Shown here: piece after piece, positions 7,664-27,190 of the stretch | How the letters are laid out: every line of letters begins with the position of its first letter | Numbering within the stretch: position 1 is the first letter of the stretch | Origin: Sphingobacteriales bacterium | GTDB taxonomy: Bacteria > Bacteroidota > Bacteroidia > AKYH767-A > OLB10 | DNA: 43,095 nt | NCBI GenBank assembly: GCA_021299095.1 | Contig: JAJTFW010000027.1 | Coordinates: 1 to 43,095, forward strand | Reading direction: 5' to 3' | Notes under the pieces: generated by a model | The model's input: only the letters and a program-made list of their open reading frames with translations | What the model was told of the DNA's origin: nothing | Databases searched by the model: none | Translations under genes and position numbers: made by a program

Positions 7664-7775
7664 CTTTGGGGAGGGCGGTGCGGTGGCCCCCTTTGCAACT
7701 TGGATTGTTTGGGCAAAAATCTACATAGGCCTTATTCCGCAACCTGCCCTGATTCAACTTTTCCCGACCCTAAAG
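7664..7775 (+). ncRNA. Candidate structured small RNA (unassigned)
   Basis: AGGGC-GGT-GCGG (7672-7683) can pair with CCGC-ACC-GCCCT (7737-7750, with single-base bulges at 7741 and 7745), making 12 bp. Directly outside, CTTTGGGG (7664-7671) can pair with CCCTAAAG (7768-7775) with one G-U pair, adding 8 bp and leaving a 17-nt bulge on the 3' side. A near-consensus -7 box (GAACTTTG) ends at 7663, just upstream. The size and a long hairpin with a one-sided bulge recall 6S-like RNAs of Bacteroidetes, but I cannot confirm any family. The opposite strand folds similarly, so the strand is inferred from the promoter-like box only. Confidence 0.35.
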
Positions 7776-18638: not shown

Positions 18639-19951
18639 TTTCAGTTCTCAAGAAAATCAGCCCTGTGAGGGCCATGCAGGCTTTCCAGTTGATGCGCTTT
18701 TCGGCTGCATTTCTGACCGGAATCATCCTGGCTCATTCTGGTTTGTCGTTAACAACGATTGGCACTTACGAATCGCTCGTTTTTTTGTCGGCAGCAACTG
18801 GTTTTTTTTGGGTAAACGGAATCAGCGGAGCCTTTGCAGGTAGCTTTTCAATCGATAAAGAACGCAGTACGCGAAAGAAAATTAACGACACGTATAATCT
18901 GCTTATCATTTGCTCGCTGCTTGTTACAACTGTACTCTATGTATTAAAACCGTTTGTGCTTGAATGGACCGGACCTGAACTCAATACCGCCTTTCCGATC
19001 TTCCTGGCCTTTGTCTTTTTAAACAATATCGGATTTGTCAACGAGTCGATAATGCTCGTCCAGAAGCGTGCACTTGGCCTGATCCTTTATGGCGTTTTTT
19101 TATTGTCATCCCATTTAATCGGGGCTCTTGTCGTCCTCGGCAAGGGAGGTGGTATTCAAGACTTACTACTCCTCTTACTCGCCATTGCTATAGTGCGAAA
19201 CATTTTGGCTCTAACACTCATTGGACGTGAAGGCTTTGAGCGTCCAACACGTTCGGGAATAACGGCAATGGCTGCAGCGAGTGCGCCGCTGGTTCTGAGC
19301 ATGCTGATTTCCGGTTCGGCCGAAACCATTGACGGACTTCTGGTGGGTCATTTTCTAGGCCCCGATGCATTTGCCGTGTTCCGCTACGGCGCTCGGGAGC
19401 TTCCTTTTGCCACCCTGCTTGCCGCAGCATTATCATCTGCGATGGTCGCCGGCTTGGCCCAGTCCGGAATGTCGGTGGAGTCGATGCGGGAATTGAAACG
19501 TGAAACCGCAGGACTGATGCACATTGTTTTCCCGGTTTCGATTGCGCTGATCCTGTCAAGTCACTTTATCTATCCGCTTTTTTTCAGCACTGCATTTGCA
19601 CAAAGTGCATCGGTATTTAACATCTACTTACTGCTTGCCATCGCCCGTGTCTGCTTCCCTCAAACACTAGTCATGGCACTTGGCAGAAATGACTTGATTT
19701 TTAAAACCGCTTTGATTGAGTTACCGGTAAACATCGTTTGCAGTCTTGGTCTACTGTTCGTTGCCGGCATCGAGGGAGTTGCCTGGGGGACCGTGATTGC
19801 ATTTTCAACCGAAAAAGTCATCCTTTATGTCCGATTGAGACGCGAGACACCTTTCCGCTTGATTGACTTTCATCCGGTAAAGCTGTGGCTGGTTTATTCC
19901 TGCATCTTACTTGGCGCTTATGTAGTTTCTGAAATTATTGCTAATCAATAA
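18635..19951 (+). CDS. MOP-superfamily polysaccharide/lipid flippase-like membrane protein
   Basis: The 438-residue protein consists of about 12-14 hydrophobic helices with little between them. The overall layout resembles Wzx/RfbX-type flippases of the MOP superfamily, which move lipid-linked sugars across the inner membrane. Examples of helices are FSAAFLTGIILAHSGLSL near the start and LWLVYSCILLGAYVVSEII at the end. The GTG start overlaps the copA TGA in GTGA form, so translation may be coupled to copA. There are no glycosyltransferase genes nearby, so the substrate is unknown. The functional link to copper export is unclear and may be only operonic. Confidence 0.65.
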   Translation: MISVLKKISPVRAMQAFQLMRFSAAFLTGIILAHSGLSLTTIGTYESLVFLSAATGFFWVNGISGAFAGSFSIDKERSTRKKINDTYNLLIICSLLVTTVLYVLKPFVLEWTGPELNTAFPIFLAFVFLNNIGFVNESIMLVQKRALGLILYGVFLLSSHLIGALVVLGKGGGIQDLLLLLLAIAIVRNILALTLIGREGFERPTRSGITAMAAASAPLVLSMLISGSAETIDGLLVGHFLGPDAFAVFRYGARELPFATLLAAALSSAMVAGLAQSGMSVESMRELKRETAGLMHIVFPVSIALILSSHFIYPLFFSTAFAQSASVFNIYLLLAIARVCFPQTLVMALGRNDLIFKTALIELPVNIVCSLGLLFVAGIEGVAWGTVIAFSTEKVILYVRLRRETPFRLIDFHPVKLWLVYSCILLGAYVVSEIIANQ

Positions 19952-20142: not shown

Positions 20143-22167
20143 ATGAAGAAAAACGTACTCTTCGGTCAGGTTGGACGCGTAGGTGCCCTGCTCCTCGCTG
20201 CAGCTTGTCTATCGGCACCAGCCGACGCTCAAAACCGTGTGATGGCTCCCGGAAAGGTTGTCAAAGCCGGCAAGTTCATCCCCAAGGTTGAACCAAACAC
20301 CCCTGTAGCAACCAACCTCACCACCAAAGCACCGGTGCGCAAGGGAAGCAGCAACACCAACACGATTGCCGTTGCTACCAAGACCGACATTGCTACCTCT
20401 GCCAACATTTACGGTTCGCTCGTAAGTGAAGGGACTTTAGCCGCCTATAATGGGGCAGTGGATGTTGTCAGCTACAGTAACCGTAAGGCTATTGGAATTA
20501 CAGCTCCAGTAAACAACAGTGGCGTAGTTCAAACACATGTGAGCTATGATAAAGGTCAAACTTGGGATACGACTTTGGTTCTGACTCAAAATGCAGGTCC
20601 AGTTAACCGTTACCCAAATGGTGTTGTAGCCAATCCTCCCGGCAACACGACTGCAAACCAAGCTTATGCTGTGGTTGCAGCTCCTCTGCTGGATGGTTCT
20701 GCATGGGACGGAGGAACATTTGCTTCTTTGCGTCTTGACAACCAGAACAGTTCCGTTTTGAATATCCCTAACGCTTCCGCTACCTCTACCATCCAGTTCA
20801 TGCCCCGTTTGGGAATGTGCACCGGAACAAACGGTAATGTATATGTATTGGGATCGAACTACGATTACAATGCTACTGCTCCTTATTTTGATGGAGCGGT
20901 TGTTAATCGTGGTGTTTGGGATGCTGCCAACAACAATTACACCTGGAGCCAAACCCTGGTTTACCATGCATTCAGCAATGATCCTGCTGATGGCAGCCAG
21001 AATTTCTCATCACTTGGAAACATCGCCTTCTCACAGGACGGTGTAACCGGCTACCTGGTAATGATCGGACGTGATTCAATCAATGATCACCTCTCTCCGA
21101 TGCCAATCATCTACCGTACGACAGATGCCGGTGCAACCTGGTCTCTTTACTATAGTGGAGATTTCTCTCCGCTGTTTGCCGGTTTCTTCCCTGCTTCTCC
21201 AGCAGCCAACCCTGCAAACGACCGTCCATTCTGGTACCTGAACAACAGCATGGACCTTCAAGTTGATGCGAACGGTAAAATCCACATCCTCTGCGAGGTT
21301 GCTGGTTCTTACTCAAACGACCTTGACTCACTCGGCTTCCTGAACAGCTACGGAACCATTTTCGACGTTTACGAAGACAACACTGGTAACTGGAATGCAC
21401 TTTGGGTTGGAACGATCTTCACTGATCCGGATCCAATCGATGCTGCAACAAGCGTAAACACCCTCGGTTGGGCAGTTTCCTTCGATGGACGCGTTCAGAT
21501 GTGCCGTTCAAACGATGCCACCAAAATGGCGTATTTCTGGATGGACACTGATACTTCAATCGCTGCAACGAACCTCTACCCGAACATCATCGGTGTAGCT
21601 GCTGACTTCACCAATTCACTTTACACAAACCCCATCAACTTCACTGCCAACGGTAGCTACGATTCCAATAACTACTGGCTGTGTGTTGCTGGTGATGGTT
21701 GGGATGCTTCAGGCAACTTCGTTGCACCTGCTGTAACAAGCCGCTGCTTGGTAGATGGCGGACTTGACACCAACCCCTGGATGCACGAGTTCGTAGGTGG
21801 ACTTGAGTTCGGTTCAGCCGATTACGTAAATCCGTTCGTGACTTCTGTCAACGAACTGCCCAACAGCCTGAACACAATCTCCCTCTATCCGAACCCCACT
21901 ACAGCGCTGAGCAACCTGGTCCTCGACCTGAAGAAAGGCTCGAACATCGTTGTAAACGTGGTAAACAACCTCGGACAGAATGTATTCAGCAACAACTACG
22001 GTTTCCGCGCAGCTGGCAGCAACAACCTGCAGCTTGACCTCAGCGAAGCCGCTACCGGTCTCTACGTTGTTCAAATCATCCTCGACGGTGAAATGACCAG
22101 CAAAATGCCTTTCCTGAAATGGGCGTTTCGGGTTCAATGGAATCCGGATCATAAAACTGTGTCCTGA
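20143..22167 (+). CDS. Secreted T9SS-sorted Asp-box (BNR-like) protein with abnormal 3' end
   Basis: A Sec signal peptide (LLLAAACLSAPADAQ, cleavage near residue 30) starts a 674-residue exported protein. Two Asp-box motifs, SYDKGQTW near residue 134 and TTDAGATW near residue 326, indicate a sialidase-like beta-propeller; whether it is an enzyme or only structural is unknown. The C-terminal part SLYPNPTTALSNLVLDL through GLYVVQIILDGEMTSKM is a T9SS type A sorting domain. Normally only a few basic or hydrophobic residues follow; here about 20 unrelated residues (from PFLKWAFRV on) are read from the antisense of bshB1. Codons are strongly biased towards a C third base, which suggests high expression. 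Confidence 0.8.
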   Translation: MKKNVLFGQVGRVGALLLAAACLSAPADAQNRVMAPGKVVKAGKFIPKVEPNTPVATNLTTKAPVRKGSSNTNTIAVATKTDIATSANIYGSLVSEGTLAAYNGAVDVVSYSNRKAIGITAPVNNSGVVQTHVSYDKGQTWDTTLVLTQNAGPVNRYPNGVVANPPGNTTANQAYAVVAAPLLDGSAWDGGTFASLRLDNQNSSVLNIPNASATSTIQFMPRLGMCTGTNGNVYVLGSNYDYNATAPYFDGAVVNRGVWDAANNNYTWSQTLVYHAFSNDPADGSQNFSSLGNIAFSQDGVTGYLVMIGRDSINDHLSPMPIIYRTTDAGATWSLYYSGDFSPLFAGFFPASPAANPANDRPFWYLNNSMDLQVDANGKIHILCEVAGSYSNDLDSLGFLNSYGTIFDVYEDNTGNWNALWVGTIFTDPDPIDAATSVNTLGWAVSFDGRVQMCRSNDATKMAYFWMDTDTSIAATNLYPNIIGVAADFTNSLYTNPINFTANGSYDSNNYWLCVAGDGWDASGNFVAPAVTSRCLVDGGLDTNPWMHEFVGGLEFGSADYVNPFVTSVNELPNSLNTISLYPNPTTALSNLVLDLKKGSNIVVNVVNNLGQNVFSNNYGFRAAGSNNLQLDLSEAATGLYVVQIILDGEMTSKMPFLKWAFRVQWNPDHKTVS

Positions 22168-22702
22168 ATGCCAGAACCGATTTCATTTTCAATTCAATGA
22201 AATCGCTGATGTCTATCACAAAATCGGGCTTTAAGTACCGATCTTGTATGTAGTGGTAAACCGCAGAAGGTCGCCATGCCAATTGCTCCTCACCGTCCCA
22301 TTGGCTGGGTATGCGAGGCAGCCCGGCAAGAAAACAAGCCTTCGATACAAGTCGTGCCGCTTTTCCATGATCGGGGTGGCGATCACTGTTCGAATTGCAA
22401 ATTACCACATCGGGTTTGAGATAACGGATTACCGGAATTAATGCCAGCTGATGCGATGCATCATCAGAAAAGAAACCGTCCTTGAACTCCATGTTCATCC
22501 GCAGCTCGACTCCGAGTAGTGAAGCGCTCGCTGCGGATTCCGCATCCCGAATATCGGCTGATCCACGGGTACCGAGTTCACCGCGGGTGAGGTCTACAAT
22601 GCCCACCTTCCTCCCATTGGCCACTTCCCTTGCAATAGATCCTCCTGCGCCCAACTCTACATCGTCGGGGTGAGCACCAAAGGCCAGTAAATCAAGCTTC
22701 AT
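22076..22702 (-). CDS. bshB1: Bacillithiol biosynthesis deacetylase BshB1, 3' end truncated
   Basis: BshB1 removes the acetyl group from GlcNAc-malate in bacillithiol synthesis. The protein has the zinc-site signatures of the PIG-L family: GAHPDDVELGAGG near the start and SDRHPDHGKAA in the middle. RGELGTRG and the WRPSAVYHYIQ segment are also present. It matches the family through the FYDPDS and PETPISGKAF segments and then ends after eight unrelated residues at about 208 residues, whereas the family usually has about 235-240. The missing tail normally carries a conserved arginine/glutamate/glycine-rich segment. The gene overlaps the 3' end of the convergent secreted-protein gene by 92 bp, so both ends are probably the product of one junction. 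Activity is doubtful. Confidence 0.85.
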   Translation of the reverse strand: MKLDLLAFGAHPDDVELGAGGSIAREVANGRKVGIVDLTRGELGTRGSADIRDAESAASASLLGVELRMNMEFKDGFFSDDASHQLALIPVIRYLKPDVVICNSNSDRHPDHGKAARLVSKACFLAGLPRIPSQWDGEEQLAWRPSAVYHYIQDRYLKPDFVIDISDFIELKMKSVLAFRTQFYDPDSIEPETPISGKAFCWSFHRRG

Positions 22703-22789: not shown

Positions 22790-23443
22790 ATGAACTCCGG
22801 CCTTTCTCGCTTACTATCGGTATTCGCCTACGAATTCAGAACCGAGTTCAGAAACAAAGAATCGATCAGCGGCATTTTGGTTTACGCCCTTGCTTCGATT
22901 TTTATCACCTGGCTTTGCTTTTTACAATCACCGGGTACGCAAGCCTGGACCGGATTATACTGGATCATACTTCTATTTGCAGCCACCAACGCTGCCGGAC
23001 GTAGTTTTATCCGTGAAAGCCGGGGACTTCAGCTTTTCCATTATATGCTGTTCAGGCCAGGCGAAGTGATACTGGCCAAATCACTTTTTAATTTCCTGTT
23101 ACTTTTTGCCTTGGGATTGTTGAACCTGTGTTGCTTCACGCTGATGTTCGGCGGAAAGGAAGGAACCCTCAACGAATTGTTGTTATTGACACTCCTGGGC
23201 GCGTTCGGCCTATCGGCTGTACTTACACTCGTTTCGTCTATCGTATCCAAAGCCTATGGTAATGCCTCCTTGGCTGCGGTCTTGGGATTCCCCTTGCTTT
23301 TTCCGGTTTTATTGATTCTTGTTAAAAGCACGTTGGCACTTCTTGAGGGTGGTCAGTCCCCAAACTGGCTCATGCTTGTCGCATTGGATGCACTACTACT
23401 TGCCCTCTCCTACATCCTGTTTCCCTACCTTTGGCGGGAATGA
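22790..23443 (+). CDS. ccmB: Haem exporter subunit CcmB
   Basis: CcmB is a membrane subunit of the CcmABC transporter of cytochrome c maturation system I. The 217-residue protein has six hydrophobic segments. It also has the typical early segment AYEFRTEFRNKESISGILVY and FAATNAAGRSFIRESRGLQL in the first third. I chose ATG 22790, since the open frame upstream has no family similarity. It is the first gene of ccmB-C-D-E-F. The ATPase subunit gene ccmA is not in the window and must lie elsewhere. Its stop overlaps the ccmC start in ATGA form. Confidence 0.9.
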   Translation: MNSGLSRLLSVFAYEFRTEFRNKESISGILVYALASIFITWLCFLQSPGTQAWTGLYWIILLFAATNAAGRSFIRESRGLQLFHYMLFRPGEVILAKSLFNFLLLFALGLLNLCCFTLMFGGKEGTLNELLLLTLLGAFGLSAVLTLVSSIVSKAYGNASLAAVLGFPLLFPVLLILVKSTLALLEGGQSPNWLMLVALDALLLALSYILFPYLWRE

Positions 23444-24132
23444 GTCAGGGTTCCTCTTTCGTGTTTTTTCGGGGTTTTGCCTGGAAGGCGCTTAGCCTTA
23501 TTTTGCTGTTTTACACCTTTTATCAGGGATTCAACGGCACGGTGCCCGAGATGCCAATCCTTCACCAGACTATTCGCAATCTTTATTTCCACGTGACCAT
23601 GTGGATGGCTATGCTTGTGCTTTTGCTGTCCAATGCCATTTATGGTATCCGGTTTCTTTCCTCTGGCAATCTGGATCTTGACTTAAAAGCGGATGAATGT
23701 GCTAAATCCGGAATGATATTCGGCATTGCCGGATTGGTTACCGGAATGATTTGGGCCAATTACACTTGGGGAGCACCTTGGGTAAACGATCCTCAATTGA
23801 ACGGCACAGCAGCCTCCCTGCTCATTTACGCGGCTTATTTTGTGTTGCGAAATGCAATCAGTGAATCAAGCAAGCGTGCTAAGCTGGCGGCTGTATATTC
23901 CATATTCGCATTTGTGATGATGTTTGTTTTCATCATGGTCATTCCCAAGCTCAGCGATTCATTACACCCCGGTAAAGGCGGAAATCCCGGATTCAACAAA
24001 TACGATCTCGACAGCAATATGCGAATGGTTTTCTATCCAGCCGTAATCGGCTGGACACTTCTTGGAGCCTGGTTCACCGAACTGAGAATCCGAATTCGCC
24101 GAATTGAACAAAAAATCGAATTAAACGCATGA
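23440..24132 (+). CDS. ccmC: Haem transport/handling protein CcmC
   Basis: CcmC passes haem to CcmE at the outer face of the inner membrane. The product of about 230 residues has six membrane helices, conserved periplasmic histidines and a tryptophan-rich loop. The loop reads IWANYTWGAPWVNDPQLNG, corresponding to the WWD-type motif of the family. ATG 23440 overlaps the ccmB stop by 4 bp; an in-frame TTG three codons earlier is less likely. Its own stop overlaps ccmD in ATGA form. The gene order and overlaps show a tightly coupled operon. Confidence 0.92.
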   Translation: MSQGSSFVFFRGFAWKALSLILLFYTFYQGFNGTVPEMPILHQTIRNLYFHVTMWMAMLVLLLSNAIYGIRFLSSGNLDLDLKADECAKSGMIFGIAGLVTGMIWANYTWGAPWVNDPQLNGTAASLLIYAAYFVLRNAISESSKRAKLAAVYSIFAFVMMFVFIMVIPKLSDSLHPGKGGNPGFNKYDLDSNMRMVFYPAVIGWTLLGAWFTELRIRIRRIEQKIELNA

Positions 24133-24344
24133 ATACCCGACTTTCATTCTTGCTGTTTGGCTTAGTTTTCCTGAGCAACACGGCATGCGCCGAAAACATA
24201 AATACCTGGATGGTGACAGATAACAAGATCAATGTGGTGGTCACCGTAGCATTTGTTGTTTTGTCCATCATGGCCGTCTGGCTATTCCGCATTGAAACAC
24301 GCCTCGGAAAAATCGAACGCCAGTCGGCACAAACGAAGTCATGA
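24129..24344 (+). CDS. ccmD: CcmD-like small membrane protein
   Basis: The 71-residue protein starts with a hydrophobic stretch that may be a signal peptide (LSFLLFGLVFLSNTACA). It carries one further helix, VVVTVAFVVLSIMAVWLF, followed by a basic tail beginning RIETRLGKIER. CcmD proteins are small, poorly conserved single-helix partners that help release holo-CcmE from CcmABC. Identification relies on size, topology and position between ccmC and ccmE, overlapping both by 4 bp. Confidence 0.8.
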   Translation: MNTRLSFLLFGLVFLSNTACAENINTWMVTDNKINVVVTVAFVVLSIMAVWLFRIETRLGKIERQSAQTKS

Positions 24345-24748
24345 AACGAAGCCACATCATCGCACTGGTCGTAATTGCTGTCGGGCTCGCTGTTGTTGTA
24401 AGCTCTATCAGTAATTCGAGCACCTATGCCGATTTCACCACGGCATCTGAGCATGAAGGTACATCGTACCATGTGGTTGGGAAAGTCAACCTGGAGGAGG
24501 CTTTTCGCTATGCACCTGAACAGAACGCCAATTTGTTCGGTTTTACGATGACCGACAACAAAGGAGTCCGGAAAAACGTGCTATACAACGGTACCAAACC
24601 TCAGGATTTTGAGCGTGCAGAACAAATCGTGGTCGTTGGACGGATGGAGGGCTCAACTTTTCAAGCCAGTCAGATTCTTATGAAGTGCCCGAGCAAATAC
24701 AACGGGAACGAACAGGACCGCGCCCGAATGGGTGAATCGGCATCCTGA
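24341..24748 (+). CDS. ccmE: Haem chaperone CcmE, CxxxY variant
   Basis: CcmE binds haem covalently in the periplasm and hands it to the CcmF ligase. The 135-residue protein has one N-terminal anchor (IIALVVIAVGLAVVVSSI) and an OB-fold domain with YHVVGKVNLEE, FGFTMTDNKG, VLYNGTKPQDF and VVVGRMEG. The haem-binding site reads CPSKY (Cys116 to Tyr120): a cysteine stands where the classic HxxxY motif has histidine. This cysteine form is known from archaea and some bacteria. The start overlaps ccmD, and the 15-bp gap to ccmF is the largest in the operon. Confidence 0.92.
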   Translation: MKRSHIIALVVIAVGLAVVVSSISNSSTYADFTTASEHEGTSYHVVGKVNLEEAFRYAPEQNANLFGFTMTDNKGVRKNVLYNGTKPQDFERAEQIVVVGRMEGSTFQASQILMKCPSKYNGNEQDRARMGESAS

Positions 24749-24763
24749 ACCTAAATCAAGCCT

Positions 24764-27190
24764 ATGGAAATCCAGTATATCGGCGAACACCTTGTGTTTG
24801 GTCAGTTGGGTAATGCTCTGATCACCCTCAGCTTTGTTGCAGCCCTGCTTTCAACTGCCTCTTGGTGGATTTCGATCAAATCGGATGAATTCGAACGGAA
24901 TGACTGGATCAAACTGGCCAAAACCAGTTTTTGGATCCACGCCGTATCAGTCATTGGCATCATCATACTGATCTATTTTCTGATTCATGGCCGGTATTTC
25001 GAGTATTATTACGTCTGGCAACACAGTAATTCGATTCTTCCGATCCGATACATGTGGGCCTGTTTGTGGGAAGGTCAGGAAGGCAGCTTTCTGGTTTGGA
25101 CCTTTTGGCACCTGGTTGTGTCCTTTTTCATCTTATATCGAAAAGACAGTTGGCAAGCGCCCGTAATGGGCGTCATCATGGTCATTCAGGCTTTCCTGGC
25201 CTCTATGCTTCTTGGCCTTGAATTGGGCACGATCAAAATCGGATCAAACCCGTTCATTCTTCTACGCAATCACCCTGATTTCGCCAATCTCCCCTTCATC
25301 CGCATGCCGGATTACCTGTCGAAAATCCAGGACGGCCGAGGACTTAACCCACTACTTCAGAATTACTGGATGGTGATTCATCCTCCAACGCTGTTCCTCG
25401 GGTTCGCAGCTACCGCCGTACCCTTTGCGTACGCCATCGCCGGACTAGCCACAAAGCGTATTCGCGAGTGGATAACACCAGCATTACCCTGGACGTTAGC
25501 CGGAATTGCCATTCTTGGAACGGGTATTCTGATGGGTGGTGCCTGGGCTTACGAATCACTTAGCTTTGGTGGATTCTGGGCATGGGATCCGGTAGAGAAT
25601 GCGAGCCTTGTACCCTGGCTAACCTTGGTTGCTGCCAACCACGTGATGATCATTCAGCGGAAAAACGGAACCGCATTGGGCAGTTCAATAATCCTCGTTG
25701 TTATCACCTTTCTGCTGGTCCTATACTCCACTTTCCTAACACGGAGTGGTATTTTGGGCGATACTTCTGTTCATGCTTTTACCGATCTGGGCATGAAAGG
25801 GCAGTTGATTCTCTACATGCTATTTTTTGTTGTTTGGTCAATCGCTCTGATGATCAAACACCGGGTTGAACTTCGTGGAAATCAGGATGACGATGCCATC
25901 AGCAGCCGTGAATTCTGGATGTTTATCGGCACGCTCGTCCTCGTCGTTTCGGCGATACAGATTACAGTCACCACTTCCCTACCGGTAATTAACAAGGTAT
26001 TCGGCACCAAGCTTGCACCGCCGGAAGATGCGGTGGATTTTTACAACAGCTGGCAAGTTCCGTTGGCCTTTATCATAGCAAGTTTGATGGCCGTAGGCCA
26101 ATACTTCAGATGGAAGTCAAGCGATACGAAGGCTGTTTTAAAGAGGCTTTCACTCAGCTTTGTGATCTCCCTACTTCTGACTGCAGCCTACCAATGGGGA
26201 TTCGGTTTCAACCGCATTCAACATGTATTGTTGTTGTTCAGTTCGATTTGGGCATGCACATCCAATGCTGATTACCTGATCAGAGCGCTAAAGGGAAAGC
26301 TATCCGTTGGAGGAGCAAGCGTTGCACATGTTGGCATGGCGCTGGTGCTATTGGGTGCTCTGGTCTCAAACGGAGCCAAACAGGTCATTAGCCAAAACAG
26401 ACTGCGCGTCGATCTCGGCAAGGATTTTCCGAACAACGAAAACATCCTGTTGTACCAACGCGATACATTGCCGATGGGCGAATACTACGTGACCTACAAA
26501 GGGCGCACACAGGAAGACATCCACATCCGGTTTGAGGTTGAATATTTCAAGCAGAATCCGGAAAACGGACAGCTTGAAAAAGACTTTTCACTCTTCCCAT
26601 TTGTCCAGTTGAACAAGCAGATGGGGAACGTGAGCGAACCCAGCACAAGGCAGTACGATAACCGGGACATTTACACCCACGTTACGTATGCCGAAATGGA
26701 AGATGCTTCAGCAAAATCCGACCAAAACGGCTATAAAGAGGGTAAGGAATTTGAACTTCGTCCTGGCGATACGATCACAACCAGCAATAGCCTGATTGTT
26801 TTAGAAGGTCTCAGCCGGAATGTGGATCGAAACAAGTACATGATTGCGGATGGAGACCTTGCTGTTTCCGCACAATTGCTTGTGATGGATGTAAACCGTA
26901 AACTTTTCCGGGCAGAACCAGTATTCATTCTTCGCGACAGTACCTATTTCAACCGCCCCGATGAAATCGAGGAACTCGGACTGAAGTTCACTTTTGAGAA
27001 AGTACTTCCAGAGGAGAACAAAGTGAAGATTCTTATCGCTGAGAAAGAAGGGAACTCTCGGGATTTCATCATCATGAAAGCCATCATCTTTCCACACATC
27101 AACCTTCTTTGGATAGGCTGCATTCTTCTTGCTGTTGGAACATGGATGGCCGTGGTTCGTCGCCTGCGCGAAGCGCGTAATACGGACTAA
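24764..27190 (+). CDS. ccmF: Cytochrome c haem lyase CcmF
   Basis: CcmF attaches haem to the CxxCH motifs of apocytochromes. The 808-residue membrane protein has about 13-15 helices. The tryptophan-rich haem-handling signature FGGFWAWDPVENASLVPWL lies near residue 270, with conserved histidines nearby (WMVIHPPTLFLGF; DTSVHAF). A large soluble periplasmic segment occupies roughly residues 540-770, before a last helix (INLLWIGCILLAVGTWMAVV). It is larger than the usual 650-residue proteobacterial CcmF because of this domain. No ccmG or ccmH gene is in the window. Confidence 0.95.
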   Translation: MEIQYIGEHLVFGQLGNALITLSFVAALLSTASWWISIKSDEFERNDWIKLAKTSFWIHAVSVIGIIILIYFLIHGRYFEYYYVWQHSNSILPIRYMWACLWEGQEGSFLVWTFWHLVVSFFILYRKDSWQAPVMGVIMVIQAFLASMLLGLELGTIKIGSNPFILLRNHPDFANLPFIRMPDYLSKIQDGRGLNPLLQNYWMVIHPPTLFLGFAATAVPFAYAIAGLATKRIREWITPALPWTLAGIAILGTGILMGGAWAYESLSFGGFWAWDPVENASLVPWLTLVAANHVMIIQRKNGTALGSSIILVVITFLLVLYSTFLTRSGILGDTSVHAFTDLGMKGQLILYMLFFVVWSIALMIKHRVELRGNQDDDAISSREFWMFIGTLVLVVSAIQITVTTSLPVINKVFGTKLAPPEDAVDFYNSWQVPLAFIIASLMAVGQYFRWKSSDTKAVLKRLSLSFVISLLLTAAYQWGFGFNRIQHVLLLFSSIWACTSNADYLIRALKGKLSVGGASVAHVGMALVLLGALVSNGAKQVISQNRLRVDLGKDFPNNENILLYQRDTLPMGEYYVTYKGRTQEDIHIRFEVEYFKQNPENGQLEKDFSLFPFVQLNKQMGNVSEPSTRQYDNRDIYTHVTYAEMEDASAKSDQNGYKEGKEFELRPGDTITTSNSLIVLEGLSRNVDRNKYMIADGDLAVSAQLLVMDVNRKLFRAEPVFILRDSTYFNRPDEIEELGLKFTFEKVLPEENKVKILIAEKEGNSRDFIIMKAIIFPHINLLWIGCILLAVGTWMAVVRRLREARNTD

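Follow-up and report, generated by a model that had tools for sequence, protein, structure and literature searches.

The window, a stretch of 43,095 nucleotides (contig JAJTFW010000027.1 of assembly GCA_021299095.1, from a Sphingobacteriales bacterium), contains two convergent reading frames at 20143-22167 (forward strand) and 22076-22702 (reverse strand). These frames overlap by 92 bp, as an initial sequence-only reading had stated. The forward frame begins as a gene for a secreted T9SS type A cargo protein: its native part occupies 20143-22107 and encodes a BNR/Asp-box-like body and a Por_Secre_tail domain (residues 581-654). The frame then runs through 19 foreign residues and a stop codon (22108-22167, forward strand), which are encoded by the antisense strand of bshB1. 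On the reverse strand, residues 1-200 of bshB1 are native (22103-22702), and the foreign tail of eight residues and a stop codon that follows (22076-22102) is read antisense to the T9SS gene.

The two native parts meet at AAATGC (22103-22108), a stretch common to both genes. The sequence-only reading had named this hexamer correctly but had placed it at 22108-22113, five bases off. Because five or six bases, AAATG(C), fit both native ends, the joint is compatible with microhomology. Compared with the congener G003, approximately 240 bp is missing at this point. The counterpart of the missing stretch in G003 consists of approximately 18 bp from the end of the T9SS gene, 109 bp of intergenic DNA and 117 bp from the end of bshB1 (approximately 244 bp in total). 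The 109 bp intergenic DNA, which has no counterpart at the joint, includes a terminator hairpin. A terminator scan of the window found no strong terminator at the joint.

Arrangement of the locus in relatives

We compared the locus with those of 17 relatives. In 15 of them, the same two genes are convergent, both are complete, and they are separated by 44-110 bp with a strong hairpin. In this arrangement, a long gene, usually with a T9SS-type tail, is followed by a hairpin flanked by runs of A and T and then by bshB1, which is complete and in the opposite orientation. Judging from its sequence, the hairpin is a bidirectional terminator. In the other two relatives, the T9SS gene and bshB1 are each at the end of a different contig (G009) or are not neighbours (G004). 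A convergent pair with a common bidirectional terminator is thus the ancestral state in the 15 relatives, whereas the terminator is absent from the window. None of the 17 loci has a joint or overlapping gene ends like those of the window. The intact arrangement in relatives supports the earlier proposal that both gene ends and the intervening DNA were lost in a single event. That a T9SS cargo gene and bshB1 face each other across a common terminator in the 15 relatives, at the level of family and order, is in itself a modest side result.

The sequence-only reading had also offered a second explanation, namely that an assembler fused two unrelated contigs at this point. The fact that both genes are cut at one point would fit such a fusion. 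However, the neighbours and their orientation are the same in the 15 relatives, and approximately 13 genes around the joint, on both sides, are in the same order as in the congeners G001 and G003. Because the gene order is continuous with these two genomes, the joint represents a local loss and not a join of distant contigs, which this order rules out. We therefore give the fusion of unrelated contigs almost no credence.

Divergently from bshB1, cytochrome c maturation-like genes are present at 22790-27190; their order is kept in G001, G003 and G009.

The shortened BshB1 and T9SS proteins

BshB1 of the window has 208 residues. It is family-like through F200 (codon 22103-22105), and eight foreign residues, CWSFHRRG, follow; the sequence-only reading had likewise found the protein regular up to PETPISGKAF and antisense for eight residues thereafter. 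That reading had estimated a shortage of roughly 30 family residues, and this agrees with the comparison with 108 relatives, whose BshB1 proteins mostly have 238-240 residues: 38 native residues are lost, or 30 net, the last 38 residues of this N-acetylglucosaminyl-malate deacetylase of bacillithiol biosynthesis being replaced by eight foreign ones. All seven residues of the missing segment that are at least 95% conserved are absent, and therefore the truncation is not a matter of chance. In the retained body, 60 of the 63 positions with at least 95% conservation are kept and the three changes are conservative, so that nothing points to prolonged decay of the gene. The protein scores 238.7 bits against TIGR04001 (cut-off, 182.5). 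In the family alignment, the catalytic and metal-binding residues of the N-terminal Rossmann-like part (H11, P12, D13, D14 and H112) are conserved. H11, D13, D14 and H112, which belong to the zinc site and catalytic region and form invariant columns, are shared with Bacillus subtilis BshB (6p2t/6ull), Bacillus cereus BC1534 (2ixd) and the TIGR04001 deacetylases.

In contrast, the complete C-terminal part of the family (last helix and strand, at a length of approximately 238 residues) is absent from the window protein. The lost part spans the last strand, together with half of the helix before it, and contains the EGF-x-x-ER motif. AlphaFold models of BshB1 were built with approximately 35 sequences in the alignment and had pLDDT values near 94. 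The model of full-length BshB1 from G003 has its last helix at 198-213 and a strand at 220-225, and the model of a full-length relative fits the solved BshB structure 6ull with a TM score of 0.89. In the model of the window protein, the strand at 220-225 is gone, the helix stops at residue 207 and the likely partner strand at 161-164 is not formed. If the deletion is real, these models suggest that the 208-residue protein would likely be inactive. According to a review, BshB from B. cereus becomes inactive when a short beta strand, which may or may not be the one lost here, is deleted (PMC4101496).

In this genome, as in G020, convergent genes are commonly spaced closely, and a genuine pair of overlapping, shortened and working genes, selected for compactness, would fit this habit. 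However, the BshB1 family does not end at the position of the joint: no 200-residue BshB1 was found among the 108 relatives, so that a truncated family variant is ruled out. In addition, the seven strongly conserved residues are lost, and the missing part includes a core strand in the model. We regard a compact working pair as extremely improbable.

We also searched the genome for the other parts of the pathway. A single bshB1 match was obtained, and the second intact copy that had been proposed as a check was looked for and not found. An alignment of the C-terminal part against the other contigs gave nothing better than E 0.5 for a detached tail; very short pieces would lie outside the assembly. 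The single match and the failed tail search together rule out a second or detached copy. bshA (560 bits; cut-off, 273.7) and bshC (317.7 bits) are intact, each covering nearly the whole model. It is plausible that bacillithiol synthesis would be affected if the deletion is real, as had been suggested, and the strain should then be without bacillithiol even though bshA and bshC are undamaged.

In the T9SS protein, native sequence extends to M655 (codon 22105-22107), the residue at which the alignment to the G003 protein stops. The 19 foreign residues that follow are PFLKWAFRVQWNPDHKTVS. The sequence-only reading had described the domain as regular to EMTSKM and then antisense for about 20 residues, lacking its last few; compared with G003, approximately five C-terminal residues and the stop codon are missing. 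The sorting domain, of the type A family (TIGR04183, PF18962), scores 34.4 bits against TIGR04183 (cut-off, 23), and residues 581-654 match profile positions 1-67 of 72. Thus, the C-terminal end of the domain is incomplete, the native sequence being approximately five residues short, and the 19-residue tail is added to it. Read-through gives TSKMPFLK, and the proteins of relatives end with TRTMIVK or TRVLSIQK. To judge from this likeness, PFLK may stand in for the normal end of the sorting domain. Loss of two C-terminal residues blocks export of RgpB, whereas in known cases a sorting domain tolerates C-terminal extensions (PMC11285876). Because of this tolerance and the resemblance of the PFLK end to a normal one, an effect on this surface protein is less certain than that on bacillithiol; if the deletion is real, export of the protein may be retained.

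Similar losses in the same assembly and the origin of the joint

The assembly consists of 93 contigs, with 96% completeness and 1.4% contamination, and from these values it looks like a metagenome draft. A plasmid search of the genome found nothing. To place the joint in context, we used a sample of 967 kb (0.97 Mb) of this assembly, in which genes were called by a simple codon-usage script and homologues were available for part of the sample. Besides the joint in the window, at least six similar gaps were found: one further fused convergent pair and five gene-damaging losses of approximately 90-205 bp. The fused pair (C53, L204 5721-8853) consists of genes for a TPR membrane protein and a GT4 glycosyltransferase, both cut at 7759/7760 and overlapping by 86 bp. 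The TPR protein is native to approximately residue 680 and the glycosyltransferase to approximately residue 365, and approximately 10 and 17 residues, respectively, are missing compared with relatives. Four of the other losses change the frame. They affect a T9SS/BNR protein (C18, L145 near 7672; approximately 203 bp), a MOP-type flippase (C32, L197 near 19080; approximately 205 bp), a UbiD-type menaquinone decarboxylase (C72 near 22418, that is L252 near 2418; approximately 90-95 bp) and a second T9SS/BNR protein (C13, L140 near 8011; approximately 122 bp). The decarboxylase is 84% and 73% identical to that of G003 on the two sides of its break. The fifth loss is in frame: 90 bp (30 residues) near 19181 is missing from a gene at L136 18942-19490 (C8), whose product we take to be a deoxynucleoside kinase-like protein. 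The rest of this protein is 81% identical to that of G003, and its joint has no clear repeat when compared with G003.

The coding sequence of this assembly that was compared amounted to 209 kb and had neither premature stop codons nor small frameshifts. The same test of the control genomes G003 and G020 gave no breaks in 258 kb. Four events in 209 kb against none in 258 kb is a modest excess in numbers, the chance that all four fall in this genome being approximately 0.04. The further gaps of similar size in this assembly shift the weight towards an artefact at the level of the sequence. Furthermore, all of the losses are clean, of 90-240 bp, and lie in otherwise well-kept genes without any other type of damage, which is unlike usual gene decay and favours an artefact. 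The conserved ancestral arrangement, the continuous gene order, the undamaged body of BshB1 and the intact bshA and bshC point the same way. Thus, we propose that the loss of approximately 240 bp at the joint is probably a systematic artefact of assembly or library preparation. The assembled sequence lacks the bidirectional terminator and, on either side of it, the stop and final codons of each gene (38 codons in the case of bshB1). Such losses may arise at the library stage, during assembly or when gaps are closed, for instance when broken contig ends are joined on a few common bases or when reads carry template-switching deletions. In the living organism, bshB1 and the T9SS gene would then both be intact, with a normal terminator between them.

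Several losses of approximately 90-240 bp in one assembly, with none in controls, resemble the local deletion errors of draft and metagenome assemblies. However, a plain k-mer assembler does not usually join sequences on six bases, as seen at this joint, and an artefact would need a gap-closing step or deletion-carrying reads. The absence of the missing bshB1 tail from the other contigs also speaks against an artefact, as does the modest size of the excess over controls. Moreover, hairpins are normally present at the other convergent pairs of the assembly (33 of 48 spaced pairs). These retained hairpins, together with the deletions inside genes, rule out a systematic loss of hairpins. Among 49 essential-type orthologues in the sample, none was broken. 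Because only approximately 1.3 breaks were expected, this is weak evidence that is compatible with either reading, and broken essential genes cannot serve as proof of an artefact.

The alternative is a real and recent deletion of approximately 240 bp in this lineage, caused by slippage or end joining at the five or six common bases near the hairpin. This deletion would have removed the common terminator and both gene ends, leaving BshB1 without its last helix and strand and probably inactive, and the T9SS cargo protein with its foreign tail; more widely, the genome would be in deletion-driven reduction. The short match at the joint agrees with this idea, and the genome (2.5 Mb) is smaller than those of congeners (2.9-3.2 Mb). 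The broken genes are mostly of dispensable types (surface proteins, flippase and glycosyltransferase), with no essential gene among them. As for the effect on BshB1, the two strands absent from the truncated model and the inactive strand deletion of the B. cereus enzyme are in line with a real loss of function. However, decay should also leave small frameshifts and stop codons, and conserved enzymes, namely the deoxynucleoside kinase-like protein and the UbiD-type decarboxylase, were struck in genes that are otherwise intact. The retention of bshA and bshC and the absence of the joint from relatives also argue against it. Therefore, we consider a real deletion at the joint rather unlikely. A whole wave of recent real deletions of 90-240 bp, which would take in common terminators at convergent genes and BshB1 function and reduce the genome rapidly without small frameshifts, seems to us quite improbable.

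If the losses are artefacts, the apparent absence of bshB1, the menaquinone decarboxylase, the deoxynucleoside kinase-like gene and several T9SS proteins is false, and pathway calls made from this draft need checking.

Two further large overlaps between convergent frames of the sample were considered as double truncations and rejected: that at L140 80-1600 was judged to be a spurious frame, and that at L238 16273-17096 an intact H-NOX-type domain. At L255 8376-9927 (C72:80001-100000), the gene for a DUF5074 protein converges with a small lipoprotein-like frame, and the two overlap by 44 bp, which could be a double truncation. In L140 (C13), a PitA-like phosphate transporter at 605-1600 is seemingly approximately 38 internal residues shorter than that of L284.
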